Positions 1,401 through 19,476 of a stretch of DNA of 26,195 nt are shown here, piece by piece. Origin of the DNA: a virus; the IMG/VR virus record IMGVR_UViG_3300050011_000113, positions 1 through 26,195 of that record; one strand, given 5' to 3'. Within the stretch, counting starts at the first letter, position 1. The number at the start of each line of letters is the position of its first letter. The translations under genes were made by a program, and so were the position numbers. The notes beneath the pieces are model-generated. The model did not search any database and had not been told where the DNA came from. It was given only the letters and a program-made list of their open reading frames with translations.

Positions 1401-3899
1401 CTATGCGCCCTTCCACAATGATTTCTCTTGATACTCGCAAAGTAGGTTCGTCATAGTCATTCCGGCAAATGTTCCGCTGACGGTTAGCCCAAGATACACA
1501 CCCGAACCACCAATGGCATTGTTGCTGGCGTCGTTGGAACCACCCGTCACATGGAAGCCGGCTGTTATCGCAAGATTGTAATTATTGCTCGCGTTTTCGG
1601 TATCGACCGACATTGTGACGTTGTTGGAACCAAACGCTTGATTATAGGAAAAGCCGGCTCGGATAACCGCCTTGCCCTGCACGGCATTGCCATGGTGCGT
1701 CAATGCCGTCTGGATTTTCCAATTGATGGCTGCGGTACGCGCCACCAGTTGCGTCACATCCGGCCCGGAGCTGCCATAGAGCGAGTTTTGTCCCGTGGCG
1801 AGCGATGCCGACGTGGCAATGGCAGTCAGTGAGCTGCCCTGTTGCAACACCCACCACCGCTTGCCGTCGAATGTCAGCATGATCGAGCGCGTGGTAGATA
1901 GCGGGTCTTTGTACCGGACCAGAAACACCGCGTTGTGAATGGCGTTGATGTCGGCCAAGGCCCCTTGCGGCACCTGGGTAAAGTCAACCAGCTTCCAAAT
2001 GCCGTCCATATCGCCGGACAGTTTTTGCACGCTACTGCCGAACACACCGTAAATGCCGTTGGTGTTGGCAAACATGAACACACGATTGTAGCTGATGCAG
2101 GATTTTGGGTAGATTGTGCCCTGGTCAGATGACAGCGTGAGGATCGTGAACAGCGTTACGTCGCCGGCCTGATTGAGCGAGATATTGCCAATCTGCTTCA
2201 CCGACTGGTCGCCCATGATGAACAGATAATTATTGTACGCGCGTAGTGCGGTTATGGCGTGGATCAAATCGGCATCGGAAATGATAAGCGTACCCGAGGC
2301 ATCGGCCGCGTCAAAATCATCATAGCCGACGTTGCCATAGCTTGCACCCGTGCCGGTCCAAGTCAGCAAGTTGCCGCCGCCTAGCCACACCCGGCCCTGG
2401 AACACGGCCAGCGTTGTAAAGGCATCGCCGACGATGGTGCTGTTGATGAACGGCCAGACGTGGGCAATGGCGGTTGCGCCCGTGCCTGAACCGATAAGAA
2501 CCGATGGCGTCAGGTCGTAACCCGAGCCTTGCGAAGCGATGGTGGCAAGAATTGTCGGATTTGCCGAAAATGTCGCACCAACAACAGCTATGGTTGGCGC
2601 GGTAACGTAGTTCGATCCGCCGGCCGTTATGAAAACGGAAATAACACCAACAGCAGTGGCGCCTGTGTTGTCGGTGTAGTTGCCGATTGTCGCGGTCCCG
2701 GTCGCACCCGAGCCGCCACCGCCCGTGAAACTCAGCGCAAACGTACCGGGAGTGGATGAAATACCCTGAAAGGCAATAGCCAAGGCAGTCACGGCAGAGG
2801 CATTGAGCGCAATAGTATTGACCACGCCGCCAGATATTGTCGTGGTGGCCACTGCACCCGAGCCGTTGCCGTCGCTGGGGGTGATGATGGCCGCGGGCGG
2901 GGCCGAATACAGCGTGCCTCCCGTGTCGAGAACAATCGTCGCGACACTTTCAGTTCCAAGTGTTGCTCCAATAACGGGGGCCGGCCCGCCTGTAGTAACG
3001 AGAAAGAAAGTCGGCGGCGACGTGTAGCCCGACCCTGGCGATGTAAGAACAACTGCCGAAATGTATCGGCCCGAGCCACCAAGCGACGAGACAACACAAT
3101 ACCCTCGCGCGCCCGTGCCACCACCGCCTGTGGAAGTCAAAGTATGAATGCCAACCCCGGCCGGGCCGGTGAAAGTACCCGGATTGATAATTTGCAGCGA
3201 AGCGACAGGCGAACCCGTCATGGTCACATGCGCAGTAGCACCCGAGCCGGGGCTGGTGCCAATCACCACAGTCAGTACATCGGTGACCTGATAGCCGTGG
3301 CCGGGATTGTCCAAGATGATTTGAATGATGGAGCCGTTCTGCACCACCGCATGAGCCGTGGCGCCCGAGCCGCTGCCGCCCGTGATGGTGATTGAAGGCG
3401 CGGCACCATAGCCGCTGCCACCGTTCGTGACAGTGATGTTTGGCGATACCCCGCCCTGACCCACAAAAATCGTGCCGTCGAATGTCGAATAACCGGCCTT
3501 GGAATCGGCAATCAGCAACCGCGATGCCTGCCATGTCGTTACGTCAGGCTGTGCACTAAATGTGCCGTCCGGGGCAAACTGCCCTACCGCACCCGTTGCG
3601 ATATTGAAAAGATACCCAGCGCCAACCGTCGTGAACGCCACGAAATAATCCACGCCGAGTAGTGCGGCGTAAAACATCGTTGAAATGTTTTCGCCAATTG
3701 TCGCGAGCGCAGCCGCGGCCGGTGCCGGAACAGCCGTGAGATTATTGCCGGCAATCGGTTGCAGGTTTTCCAGCCACGCAAGTTCCTTTTCCGACAACGA
3801 TTGCCGGATGGATTGCGTGTTCATCTTCTCGAAGTTCTCGTAAACGATGAACTTCGTCTGATCGCGTTGATCGCCGCCTGGCTGCGGAAGGCCGGCCAT
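1401..3899 (-). CDS. Tail hub/nozzle (packaged-DNA stabilisation, P22 gp10-like) with inserted Gly-rich beta-repeats
   Basis: An 832-residue virion protein. The N-terminus (about 17-60: FENxxxxN...LSEKELAWLENLQPIAGNNL) and the C-terminal part from about 488 (AVFQGRVWLGGGNLLTW... DADLIHAITALRAYNNYLFIMGDQSVKQIG...) match the pattern of short-tailed phage hub/stabilisation proteins, which form a beta-propeller-like ring under the portal-adaptor and hold the packaged DNA. Between about 150 and 483 lies an insertion of roughly seven imperfect repeats of about 45-55 residues, each with a GSGY/GGxxY turn, a short beta segment ending in a GSGATA-like stretch, then a second strand. The gene starts 2 nt after the adaptor stop. 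The family call rests on recognised sequence style; the repeats are seen directly. Confidence 0.78.
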   Translation of the reverse strand: MAGLPQPGGDQRDQTKFIVYENFEKMNTQSIRQSLSEKELAWLENLQPIAGNNLTAVPAPAAAALATIGENISTMFYAALLGVDYFVAFTTVGAGYLFNIATGAVGQFAPDGTFSAQPDVTTWQASRLLIADSKAGYSTFDGTIFVGQGGVSPNITVTNGGSGYGAAPSITITGGSGSGATAHAVVQNGSIIQIILDNPGHGYQVTDVLTVVIGTSPGSGATAHVTMTGSPVASLQIINPGTFTGPAGVGIHTLTSTGGGGTGARGYCVVSSLGGSGRYISAVVLTSPGSGYTSPPTFFLVTTGGPAPVIGATLGTESVATIVLDTGGTLYSAPPAAIITPSDGNGSGAVATTTISGGVVNTIALNASAVTALAIAFQGISSTPGTFALSFTGGGGSGATGTATIGNYTDNTGATAVGVISVFITAGGSNYVTAPTIAVVGATFSANPTILATIASQGSGYDLTPSVLIGSGTGATAIAHVWPFINSTIVGDAFTTLAVFQGRVWLGGGNLLTWTGTGASYGNVGYDDFDAADASGTLIISDADLIHAITALRAYNNYLFIMGDQSVKQIGNISLNQAGDVTLFTILTLSSDQGTIYPKSCISYNRVFMFANTNGIYGVFGSSVQKLSGDMDGIWKLVDFTQVPQGALADINAIHNAVFLVRYKDPLSTTRSIMLTFDGKRWWVLQQGSSLTAIATSASLATGQNSLYGSSGPDVTQLVARTAAINWKIQTALTHHGNAVQGKAVIRAGFSYNQAFGSNNVTMSVDTENASNNYNLAITAGFHVTGGSNDASNNAIGGSGVYLGLTVSGTFAGMTMTNLLCEYQEKSLWKGA

Positions 3900-3901
3900 G
3901 G

Positions 3902-4876
3902 CTACCTCGATACGCGGCGCTGGAATGTCTTGTTGTACGGGTTCGGTATTCGCACCGGACCTTGGCCGTAAATGATCTTGGGCACACGGGCCGAATAGAG
4001 TTTCAGGTAGTATTCAGCCTGATTGAAGTTCTGCAATTTGTTCAAGCAGTAGTGCGCCGCGTAGTACTTCACCGCGTCGGTGAATGGCGGCAAAATTTGA
4101 ACCTCGTAATCGGTCGTGTTCACTAACGGAATTGGCGTCTGCAACACGTCCCATTCGGTCTGGTATGCCTGGTCCGGCGGCGGTTGAATAACAACTGTGC
4201 TGGTGGACGGGTGAATCGTCCAAACCATGCCGCGCTGGTAGAAGCCGAGCTGAGAGCGCATGTAGGCTTGGTACAGCGTGAAGCCACGAAATCGCAGCAT
4301 GTACCGCTGGTTACCCCAGATGTACGAAATGGAAACGACATTGAACACATTGTTGAACATCACCGTGCGAGCAGTGGCTCCACTACCCCCACCCGAATCA
4401 GTAATAGTGATAGCCGGTAGCGCAGCACCCGAAATAAGCGGGATAACCGGCGTGTACCCAGTGCCCCATTGGGTGACGTTGATGGATGTAATGACACCAT
4501 TCGCAATAACCGGGACTGCAAGGGCTGTTGTACCGCCCGCAGGAGCCGCGGGGAATGTCACGGTCGTTGCCGCTGTGTAGTTGGCACCACCTGCGGTAAC
4601 CGTCGCACCAACAATCTGCCCGTTAAGCACACTGCCGGGAGCGCCGGTCATCGGGTAGACTTCCTGCTGGGCAATTGTGCTGACGGGATTATAAGCGCCG
4701 GGATTGGCCACACCATTTGGCGCGGTCAAATAAGCAGTTCGGCAGCATTGAAAATCAAGCGCGGTAACTTCACGCGCATTGTTGATGGCGTTTATCAGTT
4801 CGGCTTGACTGAAATCCGCATTGGTCTGGTCATGCAGCAGGAATTGAAGCTGCGTGATGTAATCGGAGAGTTGCAT
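3902..4876 (-). CDS. Head-to-tail adaptor/connector protein with inserted Gly-rich repeat
   Basis: A 324-residue protein. The N-terminal half-domain (MQLSDYITQLQFLLHDQTNADFSQAELINAINNAREVTALD, in two parts) is typical of phage adaptor proteins that dock below the portal, and the C-terminal section is rich in Tyr and helical (YIWGNQRYML...FTLYQAYMR...ILPPFTDAVKYYAAHYCLNKL). Residues about 86-172 are an insertion with the same GGANY/GTGY and SGGGSGATA pattern as the repeats in the neighbouring nozzle protein, placed within the adaptor fold. It starts 3 nt after the upstream stop. Order portal-capsid-adaptor-nozzle supports the role. The exact homologue (P22 gp4-like or other) is not decided. 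Confidence 0.75.
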   Translation of the reverse strand: MQLSDYITQLQFLLHDQTNADFSQAELINAINNAREVTALDFQCCRTAYLTAPNGVANPGAYNPVSTIAQQEVYPMTGAPGSVLNGQIVGATVTAGGANYTAATTVTFPAAPAGGTTALAVPVIANGVITSINVTQWGTGYTPVIPLISGAALPAITITDSGGGSGATARTVMFNNVFNVVSISYIWGNQRYMLRFRGFTLYQAYMRSQLGFYQRGMVWTIHPSTSTVVIQPPPDQAYQTEWDVLQTPIPLVNTTDYEVQILPPFTDAVKYYAAHYCLNKLQNFNQAEYYLKLYSARVPKIIYGQGPVRIPNPYNKTFQRRVSR

Positions 4877-4879
4877 TCA

Positions 4880-5185
4880 TCACGCGGCAGCCGCCAACTT
4901 TGACCGCAGCAAATAACCCTCAAGCGCCCAAATTTTGCTGCGGGCATTGTCGCGTGCGATCTTGCGGCCGATCCCTTCATCAAAGTTTTCAGGCGAAGCC
5001 GCGGCACTTTCCCCAATCACATGAAACCCGTTGCGCAGAGTGAGCGCACAAACAGTAAGACTTGTGTTTGGGAAAACGTAATAGGCTTCCTTGGCGATTT
5101 GAGCGTCAATGTGCGCCGGGTTGAGCCGCGGTGCATTGAGTCCCTTGTCCTGAATTTCTTTCTCGATAGCCTGTTCGTCACGCAT
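4880..5185 (-). CDS. N4 Gp49 / Sf6 Gp66 family phage protein
   Basis: A 101-residue protein whose central and C-terminal sequence (FPNTSLTVCALTLRNGF then VIGESAAASPENFDEGIGRK, ending KIWALEGYLLRSKL) matches the well-known small phage family named after N4 Gp49 and Sf6 gene 66. The family is common in tailed phages; its biochemical function is unknown. The length fits. The ATG at 5185 has an AGGA-type ribosome site upstream. It lies just ahead of the adaptor gene, with 3 nt between them, within the structural block, so it may be expressed late despite not being an obvious virion protein. Confidence 0.88.
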   Translation of the reverse strand: MRDEQAIEKEIQDKGLNAPRLNPAHIDAQIAKEAYYVFPNTSLTVCALTLRNGFHVIGESAAASPENFDEGIGRKIARDNARSKIWALEGYLLRSKLAAAA

Positions 5186-5220
5186 GGCATTCTTCCTCTT
5201 CGGGTTGCCAAAGTTAAGTT

Positions 5221-5658
5221 TTAACCCCCCACCTGACTGCGCGCTTTTGTCACACGCGGCACGTCCCGCATAAGGCCCTCGGTAGGGACATCCTGTTCGG
5301 CCGGCACCGGCACTTTCGGGTCCGGGTCGGTGGCCGGCACCAGCTTGAACGCAATGGCCTCGATCTTGAGCTTGTCGAAATACTCCTGCGCCAGCGTCTT
5401 GTTGGTTTCGGCATTCTGCTGCACATGCTTGGGCGTATTCCAGCCCTGCCGGCGGCAGATATAGCGGAACATGGTTTCCGGATCCACATCGGGATGGTAG
5501 CCGAGAATGTGCGCGGCCATGTCCAGCGGCAGGTTGTCGGACTGCCCCGGCATAAGTCTAAACGGCACGCCATCGGCCATATCGGTAAATGGCGTCTCAA
5601 GGCCGTTCGTGACCTTCACATAGCGGACGCGCTGCTGTGCGAGTTCGGCTGGGTTCAC
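5221..5658 (-). CDS. Hypothetical protein of the structural block
   Basis: A 145-residue protein, MNPAELAQQRVRYVKVTNGL at its start, with a compact N-terminal half that includes a short beta-rich region (PFTDMADGVPFRLMPGQSDNL) and a helical middle, then a Pro/Glu/Val-rich tail from about residue 108. The start overlaps the stop of the upstream gene (ATGA), so translation is coupled. No family is recognised. Its place between the capsid cluster and the adaptor suggests a head-completion or minor capsid accessory role, but this is inference from position. Confidence 0.68.
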   Translation of the reverse strand: MNPAELAQQRVRYVKVTNGLETPFTDMADGVPFRLMPGQSDNLPLDMAAHILGYHPDVDPETMFRYICRRQGWNTPKHVQQNAETNKTLAQEYFDKLKIEAIAFKLVPATDPDPKVPVPAEQDVPTEGLMRDVPRVTKARSQVGG

Positions 5659-5975
5659 GGCGTTATCGGAGTCGTGGTTGCGGGGTTTGTGCCGAAAATG
5701 CCCGTAGAGGGCGCCGGGGTTACCGGGATTACAGCCGGCTTGGGCGGCGCTACCGGCGGCGGCGCGGCACTCGGAACCGCACCAATCGGCAGCGGCGTCG
5801 AGCCAGCAACAACCGCAGCATGTAACACATCGGCAAAGGTCAGCGGACGCAACTTGCCGTCCATGAGCTGATACACCTTGGTCTTGGTGACGATGTAGAC
5901 GTTGCCGTTTTTCAGTTCCGTCACCGACAAAATCTCTGCCGGCGCGGTAGTTACATCAACTGTAGAGGTTGCCAT
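5655..5975 (-). CDS. Small protein with Pro/Ala-rich C-terminus
   Basis: A 106-residue protein. The first half looks folded and beta-rich (EILSVTELKNGNVYIVTKTK, VYQLMDGKLRPLTFADVLHA). The second half, from about residue 60, is Pro/Ala/Thr-rich and probably flexible. The ATG at 5975 has a good AAGGA ribosome site about 8 nt upstream, and the end overlaps the next gene by ATGA. No family is recognised. It directly follows a probable capsid-associated repeat protein, so it could be a minor head component or decoration anchor; this is unproven. Confidence 0.68.
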   Translation of the reverse strand: MATSTVDVTTAPAEILSVTELKNGNVYIVTKTKVYQLMDGKLRPLTFADVLHAAVVAGSTPLPIGAVPSAAPPPVAPPKPAVIPVTPAPSTGIFGTNPATTTPITP

Positions 5976-5986
5976 TGCGATTTTCC

Positions 5987-6895
5987 TTATTGTACGCGCG
6001 GCTGGATAAGACAGGTCGAATTGGCGTTGGAAGTAACGGCCACAAGAGCCGTTGACGCCACACCACCCGCACCACCCGTAAATGTCACGGCCGGGGCCGA
6101 GGTATAACCACCGCCAGACTGATACATATGGATGCCAAGGAGCGTGCCCGAACCAGTGAGCGCAATCGACGTGAGCTGTGCGCCCGTGGCCGACGTGTTC
6201 TGATTGCCCGACAAGGCATTACCCGGATAGACAAGACCCGGAGCCGGAACAGCACCAGCGGCGACGCCGCCTGACGGGCCGCCCTGGTAGATCGGCGTCT
6301 GCGGCACGATCCAGAAATTCGGGGTGGCCGCATAGCCAGCACCGGCATTAACCATCGTGACCGACGCAATGCCCGACGAACCGGCTGCGGTCATCACGGC
6401 AATGGCCGTGGCCTGAATACCGCCCGGCGGGGGCGGATCAATGACCAGAACCGGGGGCACAAGGAAGCCCGAACCAGCCTGCGTCACGGTCGGGGCAGCT
6501 ACGCTGCCACCAATGATGGCATAGCCAAGTGCGGTCGGGTAGCCGGTGGTGTTGGAAGCCGCGAAAGCAATGGATACGCCCGTTGCCGCGGAACCAATAC
6601 CGTTGGTCATGCCCGAGCCGGCCGTCAATGTGTTGCCGCTGACCACACCAGTGATGTTGTGGCAACGGAAATTGAAGCCATCGCAGTTGATAAAGCCGCC
6701 GGTCGAGGCCGCCTGGAAGGTCGCCCAAGTTTGCTCAATCGGGTCCCAACGCTCGATGGTGCAACTGGCATCCGTCAACACGACATACTGGCCGGGCGGG
6801 AAGTACCACACGCCACCAGAGCCGAGACAGACCTTGTTGGTGCTCTCGGAAACCTGACCGAGAGGAAGGGGAAATGCGCCGCCTATGCGAGCCAT
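5987..6895 (-). CDS. Gly-rich repeat structural protein next to major capsid gene
   Basis: A 302-residue protein. Residues 1-75 form a non-repetitive part containing VWYFPPGQYVVLTDASCTIE and several aromatic residues. From about 130 to 200 and 245 to 288 it carries the same module seen in the adaptor and nozzle: QAGSGFLVPPVLVI, NAGAGYAATPNFWIV and QSGGGYTSAPAVTF, each followed by small-residue beta segments. It starts 7 nt after the major capsid stop, with GAGGA from the junction as ribosome site. The position suggests a capsid decoration, head fibre or minor structural protein made in large amounts. No named family was recognised. Confidence 0.72.
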   Translation of the reverse strand: MARIGGAFPLPLGQVSESTNKVCLGSGGVWYFPPGQYVVLTDASCTIERWDPIEQTWATFQAASTGGFINCDGFNFRCHNITGVVSGNTLTAGSGMTNGIGSAATGVSIAFAASNTTGYPTALGYAIIGGSVAAPTVTQAGSGFLVPPVLVIDPPPPGGIQATAIAVMTAAGSSGIASVTMVNAGAGYAATPNFWIVPQTPIYQGGPSGGVAAGAVPAPGLVYPGNALSGNQNTSATGAQLTSIALTGSGTLLGIHMYQSGGGYTSAPAVTFTGGAGGVASTALVAVTSNANSTCLIQPRVQ

Positions 6896-6902
6896 GGTGT
6901 CC

Positions 6903-7913
6903 TCAGATGTTCAAGTACGCGAGGCCGTCGAACTTCCCGTGAGCCTTGCACTTCACGTCCACGAGTTCGAGCAGCGAAAGGATGGCGCCGATGTAGCCGA
7001 GCTGGTTGTTCGGGAGAGTAGATTCGAACCCAGTGAAAGAGAATGCGGCTCTCTCATGCAGGTACAGCGACAGATAGTTGGTATTGATGAGGTACAGCAC
7101 GCCCTCTGGGCAGTACGGGTCGGCATAGAACGGCACGCCGGCCACATCCAAGGCCCGGAACAGGCTGGATGCCTTTTCGTCGGCACCGAAAGCATTGCCC
7201 GGGGTGATGTTGTAGCGTTCCTGCGACGTGAAATCCTGCGCCAGCAACGTCCAAGTGCCGAATCCCATGACGCCAATGGACGGCATTTCGCCGGTGGTCT
7301 TGGAAACCTGCGAAATATATTGGAGCATCAGGTTCCGGGTCGGCGTGACGTTGCCGTTGCCGTGAACGTAGGTCGATTTCCAGAACGTGTTGGTGTTGCG
7401 GTTGATGCCGCCGTAGGTCGCCGAGAACGTGCCGTCGTCAATTGCGGCCGGCAACCCGATAAGCTGCTGGGTATTGGCGACGTTGTTGTAGAGGGAGTTG
7501 GCGAAAGTATCGATTGTGACGTTGGTGGAGTCGTTCATGCGCGCTTCGATCAGCGGCACCACCGAATAATCGAGCTGCACCAGCCCTTCCATACCCAGAA
7601 ATGGGATGGTCGAGACGAAAGCCTTGAGGTCAAATTCGGCGTCCTGAATGCCGGGCATCACACCAGGCTGTTCGAAGCTGCCCGAGTAATCCACCCACTG
7701 GCCGGACACCATCGGAGTGCCCTGGACCGGCGCCGTGATGGGCGACAGACCGCCCGTGGCGACTTGTGCCGAGGCGAGAAGGGCCGAAATCAGCGGGGCC
7801 GATTTCCAGATTTGCACGTATACTTTGTTCATGAACGCCCGCCTAACAACAGCGGACAATTCTGAGGCTATAGCGCCACTTGCTGGCACAATCCCTTGGC
7901 CGAAGATCGGCAT
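6903..7913 (-). CDS. Major capsid protein
   Basis: A 336-residue protein placed directly after a charged helical scaffold gene and before structural repeat proteins, the usual location of the major head subunit. The sequence has the style of phage capsid proteins: an N-terminal helix (ASELSAVVRRAFMNKVYVQI), a long central region with VVPLIEARMNDSTNVTIDTFANSLYNN, a substrate-like loop region, and a C-terminal part with VLYLINTNYLSLYLHERAAF. The ATG at 7913 has AAGGA about 8 nt upstream, giving a strong start. The HK97 fold is expected for tailed phages but cannot be proved by eye. No protease gene is seen beside it, consistent with an unprocessed capsid as in P22-like phages. Confidence 0.85.
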   Translation of the reverse strand: MPIFGQGIVPASGAIASELSAVVRRAFMNKVYVQIWKSAPLISALLASAQVATGGLSPITAPVQGTPMVSGQWVDYSGSFEQPGVMPGIQDAEFDLKAFVSTIPFLGMEGLVQLDYSVVPLIEARMNDSTNVTIDTFANSLYNNVANTQQLIGLPAAIDDGTFSATYGGINRNTNTFWKSTYVHGNGNVTPTRNLMLQYISQVSKTTGEMPSIGVMGFGTWTLLAQDFTSQERYNITPGNAFGADEKASSLFRALDVAGVPFYADPYCPEGVLYLINTNYLSLYLHERAAFSFTGFESTLPNNQLGYIGAILSLLELVDVKCKAHGKFDGLAYLNI

Positions 7914-9659: not shown

Positions 9660-11423
9660 TCACGGATGTGCGTGTCCGTTCTTTTTCGGCTTCTCGCCTT
9701 CCGGCGGCATTCCCATCTGCGCACGCTTGGCCGCGGCTTCGGCGGCTTGTTTCTTGCGAGCGCGCAACGAGTGGATGAGGTTGTTCTTGTTGGGCGGGTT
9801 CATCATCCGCAGGAATGCTTCCTCGTCAATCGCCTGCGCCTTCTTGAGTAGCGTTGCCAACTCCCTACTGTCGTCGGCAAACAACGGGCTGTGGCTATGT
9901 CCGGCAACGGACAGAGAGTAATCCGACGATAGGTTATGGTAGAAAAATTCATCCCCCGGCTTGCCGTCCTCTTTCGGGTCCGGCTTTATCGGATTGTCGT
10001 TGTTCCGCATATTTAGTTTCATCACTAAATCGCCCATGCGGACTAATGGCGCCTCCAACTTGGTTGCGGTCTTTTTGATGCGGCCGGTGCCGGTGGTGAG
10101 CAATTGCTTGGCGTGGCCGGTCGAGCGAACATCCTTGGTGCCCTTGCCTTCCGCAGTGGCTGTCAGCCCTGACGCCTCCAACATCAACCCGGCAATTTGC
10201 TGGTAATCCGCAAAAATGTCCGGCGGCATTTGCGGGGCCAGTTCCTTGATGGCCGCCTGCGGCAACTGATCCATCACCCACGTATCGGCCCCGCCAAAGG
10301 CCTCCATCTTATCCTCGGTCATGCCAAGGAAGCCACTACCGACGCGGGGCGGGTAAGCCTGCTTTTCGAGGATGTCGTGTATCTGGTCCAGCCGTTCATT
10401 CGACCATTGCTGCAACGGGATCAACGATTCGATGTGTGCCTTGCCCCAGAAATACTTGTAGATGCTGTAGGGCGTGATTTGGACGTAAGGGTGATCTTTG
10501 GGGAAGAACGGATTGCATTGCGTGTTGTAGAACTGCTCCTGATCCTTGCTCGGAACCCTGTACCCCTTGGCCTTTTTCAGGACTTCGATGGTTTTTTTGG
10601 AGTCGGAGAGGATGATTCCGGGATCAACGGCGAAAAATACTCGGTAGTCCTCGCATACGTCGTCCCACACCGTAAGTTCGTGGAAAGCGACCAGCGGACG
10701 ATTGATTTTGGCCACGTAGCTAGGCCTTGCGACATAGCTGGGATTGACCGATCCGGTGACGTTTCCACTTAAATTCTCCCCTGACGTGGACGCAATAATC
10801 ATCCGCGTAACCATTTCGGGAAATGGCGACTCGAATGGGGTATTGACCACGCTCAACTGGTCGATTTTGTTGGCCAGCCCAGCCCGAATCAGCCGCTGGC
10901 AGGCATTGTCATAGTCGATGTAGTAGGTGTGGACGAACGCAGGCTGGCTTTCCAGGTCGGTGATTTCCTCGGCAAATACCCCGAACTCCCACGGCATGAC
11001 CATGGTGAAAGTTTCTTCCTCTTTCACGTCGGACCAGCCCATTTTGCCGACAACGGTATCCATCACCGTTGACCATTTCAGCGCCTCGCCAAAGAAATCA
11101 AACAGACCGGCATCGCGAAAATCGTTGTTGAAGGCGTCCTGCGCGGCCATAAACTGTTTCACTTCAGCATCACTAGCGTTAGCGGGTGCAGAAAGTGAAA
11201 ATTCAGCATGGTCCGGCGAGTAGAGAAACGAGCAGACCAAATCGAGATGCGATTCGATTCGGTTGTAGATGATGTCGCTATCGCCGCTTGTGCCGTACAG
11301 GAAGAATTGCCGGCGGCGGTCGTACAGGGCTTTGCGTTCTTCTTTCGAGTCGAGACACGTCGATAGCACCCAATTTAGGTACTCATCTTTGAGACTTGAG
11401 CTTTCAGGAATGATCATGAACAT
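9660..11423 (-). CDS. Portal protein
   Basis: The 587-residue portal subunit forms the dodecameric ring at one capsid vertex, through which DNA is packaged and ejected. Evidence: size and style match short-tailed phage portals, with an acidic helical N-terminus (SSSLKDEYLNWVLSTCLDSK), a central wing region, a stretch KAHIESLIPLQQWSNERLDQ that resembles the conserved portal stem/clip helices, and a charged Lys/Ala-rich C-terminal helix. It lies downstream of the large terminase with three small genes between. The ATG at 11423 (MFMIIPESS) is preferred to the GTG at 11465, which would overlap the previous gene. Family assignment is by style and position; it is not in doubt to me, but no strict motif proves it. 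Confidence 0.82.
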   Translation of the reverse strand: MFMIIPESSSLKDEYLNWVLSTCLDSKEERKALYDRRRQFFLYGTSGDSDIIYNRIESHLDLVCSFLYSPDHAEFSLSAPANASDAEVKQFMAAQDAFNNDFRDAGLFDFFGEALKWSTVMDTVVGKMGWSDVKEEETFTMVMPWEFGVFAEEITDLESQPAFVHTYYIDYDNACQRLIRAGLANKIDQLSVVNTPFESPFPEMVTRMIIASTSGENLSGNVTGSVNPSYVARPSYVAKINRPLVAFHELTVWDDVCEDYRVFFAVDPGIILSDSKKTIEVLKKAKGYRVPSKDQEQFYNTQCNPFFPKDHPYVQITPYSIYKYFWGKAHIESLIPLQQWSNERLDQIHDILEKQAYPPRVGSGFLGMTEDKMEAFGGADTWVMDQLPQAAIKELAPQMPPDIFADYQQIAGLMLEASGLTATAEGKGTKDVRSTGHAKQLLTTGTGRIKKTATKLEAPLVRMGDLVMKLNMRNNDNPIKPDPKEDGKPGDEFFYHNLSSDYSLSVAGHSHSPLFADDSRELATLLKKAQAIDEEAFLRMMNPPNKNNLIHSLRARKKQAAEAAAKRAQMGMPPEGEKPKKNGHAHP

Positions 11424-11461
11424 GCTTATCCGGTTTAGACACACAGCCCTACATCTTGTGG

Positions 11462-11830
11462 TCACGTAGCGGGCCGCTCGTCGCCGTCGGCAACCTGCTC
11501 TTCCGAAATCTCGAAAGTTGCTTTGGCCGGGTGGGGCAAATAGAACGACTTTTCGCCGCTGCCGCCGTTGTAGTTGCCCTCGACTGTCACAGGGTCGTGG
11601 CCGATTTGCTTCACGGTTGCGCGATATTTTCCGTTGACGTGAACCTTTACGGAGGTGGTCATGGGTTTTTCCTTGTTGATCGTGAAAAACGGCTGCCGGT
11701 GCCGTTCAATTGGCGGAATTTGCCAGTCCGGCTCTGGCTCGCGGTAATCAGGATCAGGACCGAAGCGCCGCTTGCCTGCCTCAGTCTCTACGTCGGGGTC
11801 GCTGGCGATCTTTCGCCGCAAATCATTCAT
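11462..11830 (-). CDS. Hypothetical protein between terminase and portal; internal start possible
   Basis: The full frame is 122 residues from the ATG at 11830, which overlaps the stop of the upstream gene (ATGA). An internal ATG at 11662 begins MTTSVKVHVNGKYRATVKQI and has a clear AAGGA ribosome site 7 nt upstream; it would give a compact 66-residue beta-rich protein (VTVEGNYNGGSGEKSFYLPH). The N-terminal 56 residues are Asp/Pro/Arg-rich and flexible-looking. Both products may be made. No family is recognised; a cupin-like or small beta-barrel phage accessory fold is conceivable for the C-terminal part. Confidence 0.68.
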   Translation of the reverse strand: MNDLRRKIASDPDVETEAGKRRFGPDPDYREPEPDWQIPPIERHRQPFFTINKEKPMTTSVKVHVNGKYRATVKQIGHDPVTVEGNYNGGSGEKSFYLPHPAKATFEISEEQVADGDERPAT

Positions 11831-15519: not shown

Positions 15520-16059
15520 CTACGGCGACGGCAAAGGTTCCGCAACGGGTAATGTTGGGAAGTTCAGGCAAGCAAACTCGCCGTGGTATTTGCGAGCCGC
15601 GACATCATAGGCAACTGCCGCAGAAGCCTCATCCGGGTAGAACCCAAGGTAAATCTTCTTGCGGTCAACCGTTACTATAGCCCGCCACGGCCGGCCCTTA
15701 ATCGGCTTCCCGTGTCTAGTTATGTGCCGGGAAACACCCTTAAACCGCGACGTTCCGCGGCCAGTTGGCTGCTGGTTCTTTGAATTTTGCCCCTGCGTGG
15801 CAAGCCGCAGATTGGTCGAGCGACGATTATCAAGAGTATCGCCGCTCTCGTGGTCAACCGTACACGGCGGTTCCTGCATAAGTAACCGAGCCAAGTAGAT
15901 TTTTTTCTTCCACTTACGGCCGCCAATTTGCGCGTAAACACGAGGCTTTTTGGTTTTCCGGCCCTGCAAACAGACCATCCAAGTAAATTGGCCGACTATT
16001 GCCAGGTCCTCGTCGTCAACCTGCACGTCATGTCCGGTTTTGGTGCGGAAAACAGCCAT
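15520..16059 (-). CDS. HNH endonuclease with AP2/ERF DNA-binding domain (homing-type)
   Basis: A 179-residue protein. Residues about 60-90 carry the HNH pattern VDHESGDTLDNRRSTNLRLA, with His70, Asp77 and Asn78 as likely metal and catalytic residues. Residues about 105-168 match an AP2-type DNA-binding domain: SRFKGVSRH, WRAIVT, KKIYLGFYPDEASAAVAYD and KYHGEFACLNFP. Such enzymes are typical free-standing homing endonucleases of phage genomes; they nick or cut a target and spread by recombination. I selected the ATG at 16059; no clear ribosome site is seen. It lies at the edge of the late gene block next to a gene-poor gap, a common place for these elements. No intron or split gene was found around it. 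Confidence 0.93.
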   Translation of the reverse strand: MAVFRTKTGHDVQVDDEDLAIVGQFTWMVCLQGRKTKKPRVYAQIGGRKWKKKIYLARLLMQEPPCTVDHESGDTLDNRRSTNLRLATQGQNSKNQQPTGRGTSRFKGVSRHITRHGKPIKGRPWRAIVTVDRKKIYLGFYPDEASAAVAYDVAARKYHGEFACLNFPTLPVAEPLPSP

Positions 16060-16404
16060 AACAAAACGTGTACTACATACATTTGGCAATGTCCACCCCT
16101 AGTCAAGCCATTGACCTAAAAATCTTTTTGGGGGGAACCGAGGATGGGGAGCACCGATTCCTAACTCAGGCCCCATCGCGCCCGCGCCAGCTCCAGCGCG
16201 CTGGGCCGGGGCGGTCACCAACCGGTCCGCAACCGGTTGGTCTGGGCACGTAACCCATTGGTATTGCTAGGGTCAGCTATAGACCACACTCGATTTGGCA
16301 GCACATTGGCAGCAATCAGCACGGTCCACAGCCACACCAGGCGCCAGAAATGCCCGTAGAATGGCCCTCAGTGGGGCTGTAGTGGCTCAGGGTGAGCGAC
16401 GGTT
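16060..16404. other. Gene-poor gap between HNH endonuclease and HTH gene
   Basis: A 345-bp stretch in which I see no convincing gene on either strand. It contains a perfect 9-bp inverted repeat, listed separately, and a run of GGCCGGGGCGG-type sequence. No tRNA-like fold was recognised. It may be a control or recombination region flanking the mobile endonuclease gene. Confidence 0.5.
16217..16241. repeat. Perfect 9-bp inverted repeat (hairpin or operator)
   Basis: The arms ACCAACCGG (16217-16225) and CCGGTTGGT (16233-16241) are exact complements, separated by a 7-nt loop TCCGCAA. No T-run follows on either strand, so a rho-independent terminator is not suggested. It could be a protein-binding site or a structured RNA element in the leader of the endonuclease gene. 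Confidence 0.55.
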
Positions 16405-18577: not shown

Positions 18578-18886
18578 GTGATAAACCATCCCAACCGCAG
18601 CAAGAAAAATGTCGAACGGGCCGTGCTGGTGACAACCTCTCACCGCGGCGTGTTTTTCGGCTATGCAACTGAGACTGACGGCGCGACAATCAAGCTCCGC
18701 GCTGCACGAAACTGCATCTATTGGTCGGCCGACGTTAAGGGCTTCCTCGGTCTTGCATCAACTGGCCCAACTAAAACCTGCAAGATCGGACCAGCCGCCA
18801 ACATCGACGTTCGCGATATTACTTGCGTTGCGGAATGTCTGCCGCAGGCCGTCGCAGCGTGGGAGGCAGCGCCGTGGACGCGATAA
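18578..18886 (+). CDS. DUF6948-like small phage protein
   Basis: About 102 residues from a GTG at 18578, which is preceded by AGGAGAAGG, a strong ribosome site. The pattern ERAVLVTTSHRGVFFGYATE, then LRAARNCIYWSADVKGFLGL and GPTKTCKIGPAANIDVRDIT, matches my memory of the DUF6948-type small phage proteins, in which a conserved 'GVFFG...AR..WYWSGA/SADV...L...G.....I' runs through a beta-rich fold. Function is unknown for the family. The frame also reaches 18551, but that start lacks support. It overlaps the next gene by 13 nt. Confidence 0.78.
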   Translation: MINHPNRSKKNVERAVLVTTSHRGVFFGYATETDGATIKLRAARNCIYWSADVKGFLGLASTGPTKTCKIGPAANIDVRDITCVAECLPQAVAAWEAAPWTR

Positions 18887-19476
18887 TTCTTAGAGGCAAC
18901 GCACCTTACGGCTACGGCTCCGGCTACGGCTCCGACTACGGCTACGGCTACGGCTCCGGCTACGGCGACGGCTACGGCTCCGGCGACGGCTACGGCTCCG
19001 GCGACGGCTACGGCGACGGCTCCGGCTACGGCTCCGGCTCCGGCTCCGGCTACGGCTCCGGCTCCGGCTACGGCGACGGCTACGGCTCCGACTACGGCTC
19101 CGGCTACGGCTCCGACTACGGCTCCGGAGAGTATTGGCTGTCCGCCGTCGACTATCTCGTGGTGAAGTGGCCCGAGAGTATCCAAAAGAGATTTGCCGAG
19201 ATTCTCGCGCTTGGGGTAACCATCGCGTTCTGGCGATCAGACAAGAATGCTCTACCGGCAAATGGTGGCAAGAAGATCGAACCCGCAGCGCCGGGCGTTA
19301 TTCACACCGCGCCCGGCCCGCTCAATCTCTGCCATGCCGGCACATTGCACGCCACGCTATTACCGCCGAAATGGAAAGGCGAGCGATGGTGGGTTGTGGC
19401 CTTGCACGGCGAGGTTATTGGCGACGAGGAAAAATATGGCTGCCTCAAACGCGAAATCATTGCCGAGGCTTTATGA
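18874..19476 (+). CDS. Protein with Gly-Tyr/Ser/Asp repeat arm and conserved C-terminal phage domain
   Basis: A 200-residue protein from a GTG at 18874, with GGGAGG about 7 nt upstream. Residues about 12-86 are a low-complexity arm made only of Gly-Tyr, Gly-Ser and Gly-Asp dipeptides, plus a few Ser-Asp. The rest is a folded domain: EYWLSAVDYLVVKW, then KRFAEILALGVTIAFWRSDK and LCHAGTLHATLLPPKWKGER with WWVVALHGEVIGDEEKYGCL, which matches a recurrent phage domain often linked to such arms (my recollection, no database check). Function is unknown. The gene ends with an ATGA overlap with the next. Confidence 0.75.
   Translation: MDAIILRGNAPYGYGSGYGSDYGYGYGSGYGDGYGSGDGYGSGDGYGDGSGYGSGSGSGYGSGSGYGDGYGSDYGSGYGSDYGSGEYWLSAVDYLVVKWPESIQKRFAEILALGVTIAFWRSDKNALPANGGKKIEPAAPGVIHTAPGPLNLCHAGTLHATLLPPKWKGERWWVVALHGEVIGDEEKYGCLKREIIAEAL
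18910..19127 (+). repeat. Tandem hexanucleotide array (GGCTAC / GGCTCC / GGCGAC)
   Basis: About 218 bp made almost entirely of the hexamers GGCTAC, GGCTCC and GGCGAC, with a few CGACTA junctions, in the coding frame of the preceding feature. The units encode Gly-Tyr, Gly-Ser and Gly-Asp. Such arrays can change length by slippage, which here would keep the reading frame because each unit is two codons. Confidence 0.9.

Follow-up and report, generated by a model that had tools for sequence, protein, structure and literature searches.

One Gly-rich beta module shared by the tail nozzle, the tail adaptor and a capsid-neighbour protein of a phage, and found in structural proteins of other phages

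The window analyzed here, a virus record of 26,195 bases (IMG/VR record IMGVR_UViG_3300050011_000113), encodes on its minus strand a tail nozzle, a tail adaptor and a 302-residue protein next to the major capsid protein (the capsid-neighbour protein). The analysis confirmed that these three virion proteins contain one shared module, more alike than chance likeness among Gly-rich proteins would produce. The module is not confined to this short-tailed phage and is widespread in phage structural proteins, including tail and neck proteins of many ocean cyanophages. With moderate confidence, we consider it a small, almost uncharged beta domain of two half-repeats, which is inserted in exposed loops and acts mainly as an architectural arm.

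To describe the module, a profile was seeded with nozzle units from the window and from MW202825, refined on nozzles only and run with Z=1000. Its consensus reads VTSVVITNAGSGYTSAPTVTITPSGGGGTGATATAVI. Each half-repeat of about 40 residues follows the layout N-x-GSGY turn, strand, GGxGATA turn, strand; conservation in the profile is strongest at residues of the turns and the core (G, Y, V/I), and none of the conserved positions is charged. Charged residues account for 0.5–2.7% of the modules versus 10–14% of the carriers, and the modules are rich in Ser, Thr and Gly. The nozzle-trained profile detected eight half-repeats in the nozzle, two in the adaptor and three in the capsid-neighbour protein (Table 1). 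Whole-protein E-values were 9.2e-6 for the adaptor and 3.2e-9 for the 302-residue protein, neither of which had been used in training. A six-frame profile scan of the window returned exactly these three carrier frames and no fourth.

For the controls and the family comparisons, IMG/VR searches supplied at least 80 loci by the adaptor query, at least 80 by the nozzle query and 80 by the capsid query; 252 loci together with the window, 253 sequences in all, supplied the set of 11,914 open reading frames (ORFs). At E≤0.01, composition shuffles matched the profile in 0 of 3260 cases for adaptors, 1 of 2880 for capsid-neighbour proteins and 0 of 3320 for nozzles, and reversed sequences never did (0/163, 0/144 and 0/166, respectively). 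Among 362 natural Gly/Ser/Thr/Ala-rich ORFs outside the three families, the single match was a cut fragment of a capsid-neighbour protein (L001), and the only three further carriers at E≤1e-6 in the whole ORF set reduce to that same fragment sequence. Over the portion examined, the 1086-residue frame of one locus (G003) gave no profile match with E≤0.05. Direct pairwise alignment of the three segments was weaker (z 4.9, 4.5 and 3.1), the adaptor versus 302-residue protein score being reached by 3 of 500 shuffles; as this was suggestive and insufficient, the profile was used. The initial annotation, which had proposed the same module in all three proteins, is thus borne out by the nozzle-only profile and its controls. 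Its estimates of one to two copies in the adaptor and two to three in the capsid-neighbour protein agree with the profile, and the nozzle repeats are likewise present, with eight copies, two of them weak, in place of about seven.

Table 1. Carrier proteins, half-repeats and neighbouring features in the window (aa, amino acids; i-E, independent E-value)
Feature	Residues	Window position	Strand	Remarks
Tail nozzle protein	832 aa	1401..3899	-	platform and beta-propeller core of ~490 aa, module array inserted (see text on direction)
Nozzle module array	154-481	2457..3440	-	8 half-repeats, probably 4 domains of 2; profile matches
Nozzle half-repeat 1	154-186	3342..3440	-	clearest copy; i-E 2.2e-10
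Nozzle half-repeat 2	193-227	3219..3323	-	i-E 1.6e-9
Nozzle half-repeat 3	253-270	3090..3143	-	weak; i-E 2.5; predicted strands 250-257, 262-272
Nozzle half-repeat 4	281-305	2985..3059	-	i-E 6.4e-5
Nozzle half-repeat 5	319-355	2835..2945	-	i-E 2.7e-5
Nozzle half-repeat 6	389-405	2685..2735	-	weak; i-E 0.085
Nozzle half-repeat 7	419-454	2538..2645	-	i-E 2e-5
Nozzle half-repeat 8	453-481	2457..2543	-	i-E 1.3e-4
Tail adaptor protein	324 aa	3902..4876	-	SU10-adaptor type, module pair inserted
Adaptor half-repeat 1	92-121	4514..4603	-	i-E 0.0069
Adaptor half-repeat 2	129-169	4370..4492	-	i-E 0.025
Capsid-neighbour protein	302 aa	5987..6895	-	predicted jelly-roll, modules inserted before last strand
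Jelly-roll carrier, main part	17-91	6623..6847	-	model and VIA
Capsid-neighbour half-repeat 1	136-168	6392..6490	-	i-E 2.7e-5
Capsid-neighbour half-repeat 2	177-211	6263..6367	-	i-E 0.0026
Capsid-neighbour half-repeat 3	261-285	6041..6115	-	i-E 3.7e-6
Last jelly-roll strand, after modules	293-300	5996..6019	-	model and VIA
Major capsid protein (context)		6903..7913	-	phrog_9953 major head protein, E 9.8e-28

The adaptor gene directly precedes the nozzle gene on one strand, an order kept in two further loci (L004 and L005). The adaptor alignment comprised 57 of 79 picked sequences. The SU10_adaptor model (PF24175) scored above cut-off in all eight adaptor homologues tested, whether they bear modules, bear another insert or lack modules; the window adaptor itself gave no Pfam match at E≤1, though it is a member of the same profile family as these homologues. 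Both flanks are present in 150 distinct adaptors: the modules occur in 56 of these and a different insert in 81, and 13 lack an insert. All three states are seen at one loop region, and judged by these relatives the modules are plainly insertions. The module-bearing adaptors nearly all hold two half-repeats. The different insert, also present in L005, is about 70 residues long with the pattern W..G..V..G.YVFSNIFIYQV, and no Pfam name beyond the adaptor family itself was obtained in five tested. In a second adaptor group (8 loci), the modules score 168–192 with their own nozzle, values biased upward because each is the best of several pairs, versus 95–113 (medians) with the window-group adaptors. 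Since the own-nozzle scores are the higher ones, a separate origin is suggested for the adaptor modules of this group.

The capsid-neighbour protein was modeled on all 64 picked sequences (predicted local distance difference test, pLDDT, 86.8; predicted template modelling score, pTM, 0.77) and is nearly all-beta by DSSP. A VIA search gave a best Z of 7.6 to jelly-roll/cupin-type chains over about 75 aligned residues, with ranges reaching residue 299–302; the jelly-roll label is tentative, because this Z falls in the range that VIA calls common. Foldseek returned no match for the model in the PDB at E≤0.001, and among predicted viral structures the best matches were structural proteins of cyanophages and proteins annotated as P22 gp10, baseplate wedges ranking lower. 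In the model the modules seem to interrupt the jelly-roll, lying between its main part and its last strand, which together form the carrier. Short relatives of about 92–139 residues, which have no modules, are covered by the family profile too; detectable modules occur in 64 of 144 distinct proteins, and of the remaining 80, 76 fall below 180 residues. Here, too, the homologues indicate plain insertion. Relatives lacking the block thus exist for both proteins, and the claim of the initial annotation that the module interrupts the adaptor stands.

The nozzle was modeled on 63 of 64 picked nozzles (L107 left out; pLDDT 86.1, pTM 0.68). Foldseek matched the model to the nozzles of A4 (E 9.8e-19) and SU10 (5.7e-15), the A4, SU10 and T7 matches ranging to 2.9e-11, and also to those of P22 and crAss001. 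VIA aligned 395–477 residues with phage nozzles at Z 18–24 (Pa223: Z 24.2, 446 residues). The VP1 nozzle is likewise among the matches of the model. The core aligned with P22 gp10 (471 residues) over 411–415 residues at Z 21.1, and P22-type nozzles of 445–521 residues cover this core. The predicted structure thus has the platform and beta-propeller fold of the P22 gp10, T7 gp12 and SU10 gp17 nozzles. It is nearly all-beta by DSSP, with about three predicted strands per half-repeat and about two blades' worth of strands before the array. The array lies within the beta-propeller, the part of the nozzle in which SU10 has four immunoglobulin-like (Ig-like) domains.

For the nozzle, an alternative is that the segments are native nozzle domains of the family and that nothing was inserted in this lineage, which we regard as possible, if doubtful. 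Modules are found in 156 of 158 distinct family nozzles, and in SU10, too, nozzle domains lie within the propeller. Against this stand two module-less relatives (L217 and L224) with an empty site, in which the propeller strand before the array runs straight into the strand after it; the L224 nozzle runs off the end of its contig yet still covers the site. P22-type nozzles are of core size, the copy number varies from two to eight, and module-less adaptors and capsid-neighbour proteins clearly exist. The gain in the nozzle claimed in the initial annotation is thereby qualified: with modules in 156 of the 158 nozzles, and with T7/SU10-type nozzles carrying domains at this place, the two empty sites may reflect either an original absence or a loss.

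At a permissive threshold, nozzles were found with two (16 nozzles), three (1), four (33), five (5), six (64), seven (1), eight (4) and nine (1) half-repeats, so the number is even in 117 of 125. Since nozzle copies are mostly even, the unit is probably a pair of half-repeats of about 80 residues. Other additions were seen in individual nozzles. The module-less L217 nozzle has a DUF4082 domain in its C-terminal part (residues 516–621, E 5.1e-17), the L003 nozzle an extra Gly-rich C-terminal insert (residues ~770–850) that the window nozzle lacks, and the 1226-residue L023 nozzle two more long inserts in the propeller half, mutually similar by eye and with no Pfam match.

Beyond this family, the modules match PHROG profiles for proteins of the head, neck, baseplate and fibres, with E-values down to 1.1e-15. 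A tblastn search with the four-module block of MW202825 gave matches in 294 of 50,697 phage records; 284 of these are named Synechococcus, Prochlorococcus or Cyanophage, with the annotations gp7, gp8, gp14 and fibre. Four copies were detected in P-SSM2 gp14 (whole-protein E 6.3e-23) and a match in part of P-SSM4 gp7 (E 2.7e-9), while P-SSM2 gp13 and gp15 had no match to the module profile. The module has no name in Pfam or NCBIfam, both of which were searched, and no paper naming it was found in the open-licence PMC literature. On the host side, one contig that was binned into an Acidobacteriaceae genome, a binning that may be wrong, carries a capsid relative at 72%, and the locus of that relative has all three module proteins. 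Domain shuffling in phage structural proteins is generally documented, as an excerpt of PMC10684548 describes.

The best reading of the module is an architectural domain, arm-like and promiscuous in its carriers, that parallels the Ig-like domains of phages. Two half-repeats would make one domain, inserted into exposed loops of the three proteins. In the nozzle, an arm of one to four domains would hang off the beta-propeller at the tail tip, at the place of the SU10 Ig-like nozzle domains; the adaptor would have one domain in the loop region that holds the different insert in other relatives, probably near the fibre dock; and two or so domains would extend the jelly-roll carrier. In P-SCSP1u, fibre docks are described on adaptor and nozzle (excerpt of PMC10575957). 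Several points weigh against an arm of this kind. The even counts come from related sequences, depend on the threshold and amount to a pattern, not a test. The 302-residue protein is only a putative capsid-surface protein, by its gene position after the capsid gene and its weak resemblance to a jelly-roll. The likeness to Ig-like domains is one of analogy, and the module consists of two short GSGY/GATA half-repeats in tandem. Glycan binding by an uncharged surface is also conceivable. Neither an experiment on the module nor a solved structure of it turned up: PDB sequence searches with the single proteins gave nothing useful, and the PDB search with the nozzle-alignment profile gave 2x5r alone (E 0.047 over the array), judged to be probably chance. 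Finally, the nozzle modules are less conserved than the core (40% versus 60% median identity over all window positions, among 21 chosen relatives of the window's group), which fits an exposed or a host-facing part as well.

The architectural arm is favoured over two other readings, bracing and adhesion, and the three overlap. In an assembly brace, the vertex would be stiffened by modules that pack on the capsid or on one another, whether they belong to adjacent subunits or to different proteins. We consider this rather unlikely, even though the module is present in three parts of one particle, is conserved in the capsid-neighbour protein and has a parallel in SU10, whose nozzle domains touch neighbouring nozzle subunits and short fibres (excerpt of PMC9509320). 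Its presence in the three proteins is uncoupled: among 129 distinct loci with the three genes, 78 have modules in the nozzle alone, 40 in both adaptor and capsid-neighbour protein (two of them with none in the nozzle) and 11 in the adaptor without the capsid-neighbour protein. Three of these 11 (L108, L197 and L215) have long capsid-neighbour proteins with no profile match, so the clear uncoupled loci number eight, with adaptor modules beside a capsid-neighbour protein of 121–124 residues. Nor are modules of the same genome clearly more alike. Adaptor modules are closer to adaptors of other genomes (148.5) than to other proteins of their own genome (105), and permutations of own-genome module pairs gave 214/2000 for adaptor–nozzle, 1146/2000 for adaptor–head and 40/2000 for head–nozzle, the last weakly positive. 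Across loci, the three carriers hold modules independently of one another. Recent copying among the three genes was also tested and is unsupported, given these own-genome comparisons and DNA repeats that are short and 60–86% alike.

As an adhesive decoration, the modules would bind glycans of the host or of another surface, letting the phage linger before committing. The occurrence in many phages, in proteins of tail, baseplate, neck and fibre, the low charge with Ser/Thr/Gly-rich composition and the adaptor loop region common to another kind of insert are compatible with this, and Ig-like domains are proposed as carbohydrate binders in an excerpt of PMC5292684. We nevertheless hold adhesion unlikely: the strongest positions of the profile are the turn and core residues, no charged residue is conserved, and the capsid-neighbour modules are not diversified. 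Their median identity among the same 21 relatives is 64% versus 45% for the jelly-roll over all window positions (65% versus 45% over aligned positions), and a structural role is therefore favoured over host-range variation there. In the adaptor, the modules reach 61% versus 64–70% over all window positions. The capsid-neighbour figures speak against rapid host-driven change, and the nozzle figure is neutral in this respect. A further idea, which we rate as quite improbable, is a like-to-like connector, in which the uncharged two-repeat domains of capsid-neighbour, adaptor, nozzle and cyanophage gp14/baseplate proteins would pair homotypically and stitch neighbouring parts or particles together, nozzle copy number setting the reach of the tail tip on ejection. 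Low-complexity likeness without common descent is highly improbable, for all the Gly/Ser/Thr/Ala-rich composition, high HMMER bias scores and low pairwise z (3.1–4.9), given the shuffled, reversed and natural Gly-rich controls, the ordered motif with fixed spacing and a structure search with the 302-residue model that returned nozzle, cyanophage structural and baseplate proteins.

Elsewhere on the minus strand of the window, the portal protein (9660–11465) weakly matches SU10_portal (E 0.00064, below cut-off), which would fit a tail of the SU10 kind. A free-standing HNH-type protein (15520–16089; HNH_3 E 0.0004, below cut-off), which we take to be a likely homing endonuclease, lies beside the packaging genes. 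On the plus strand, a 217-residue frame (18823–19476) reads as Gly-Tyr-Gly-Ser/Asp repeats and includes a 12-base unit in 18.2 tandem copies (18907–19127).

If the architectural reading is true, an unnamed domain, alongside the Ig-like ones, is reused across tail types in neck, baseplate, fibre, adaptor and nozzle proteins; it would be a common part of many hypothetical structural proteins and mark loops that tolerate inserts, and the nozzle copy number (0 to 8 half-repeats) would be a natural experiment on tail reach. Among the closest parallels are the SU10 gp17 nozzle domains and the T7-type tip domain, where several small beta domains likewise lie inside the nozzle beta-propeller. According to an excerpt of PMC9509320, SU10 has four Ig-like nozzle domains between propeller blades 2 and 3; on ejection these straighten, which lengthens the nozzle. 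The eight half-repeats of the window would also make four domains. Unlike the SU10 and T7 nozzles, which had no sequence match to the window nozzle in the PDB profile search, the window has the same domain again in the adaptor and the capsid-neighbour protein. The adaptor differs from the SU10 type (PF24175) in the pair inserted near model position 55, where the Pfam model has nothing. Phage Ig-like domains, as in T4 Hoc, T5 pb10 and the lambda tail tube protein, are small exposed beta domains added to unrelated virion proteins (excerpt of PMC5292684), and the module is similarly an add-on in three carriers here and in proteins annotated as gp7, gp8, gp14 and fibre elsewhere. In contrast to them, no Ig model was among the Pfam matches at E≤1 for the three window proteins. 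T4-like phages are contractile-tailed, and the GSGY/GATA repeats of T4-like cyanophage proteins (PHROG 460 head closure, 701, 19630, 708, 438, 719 and 2885) are the same module by profile; they sit in other carrier proteins and are unnamed there too.

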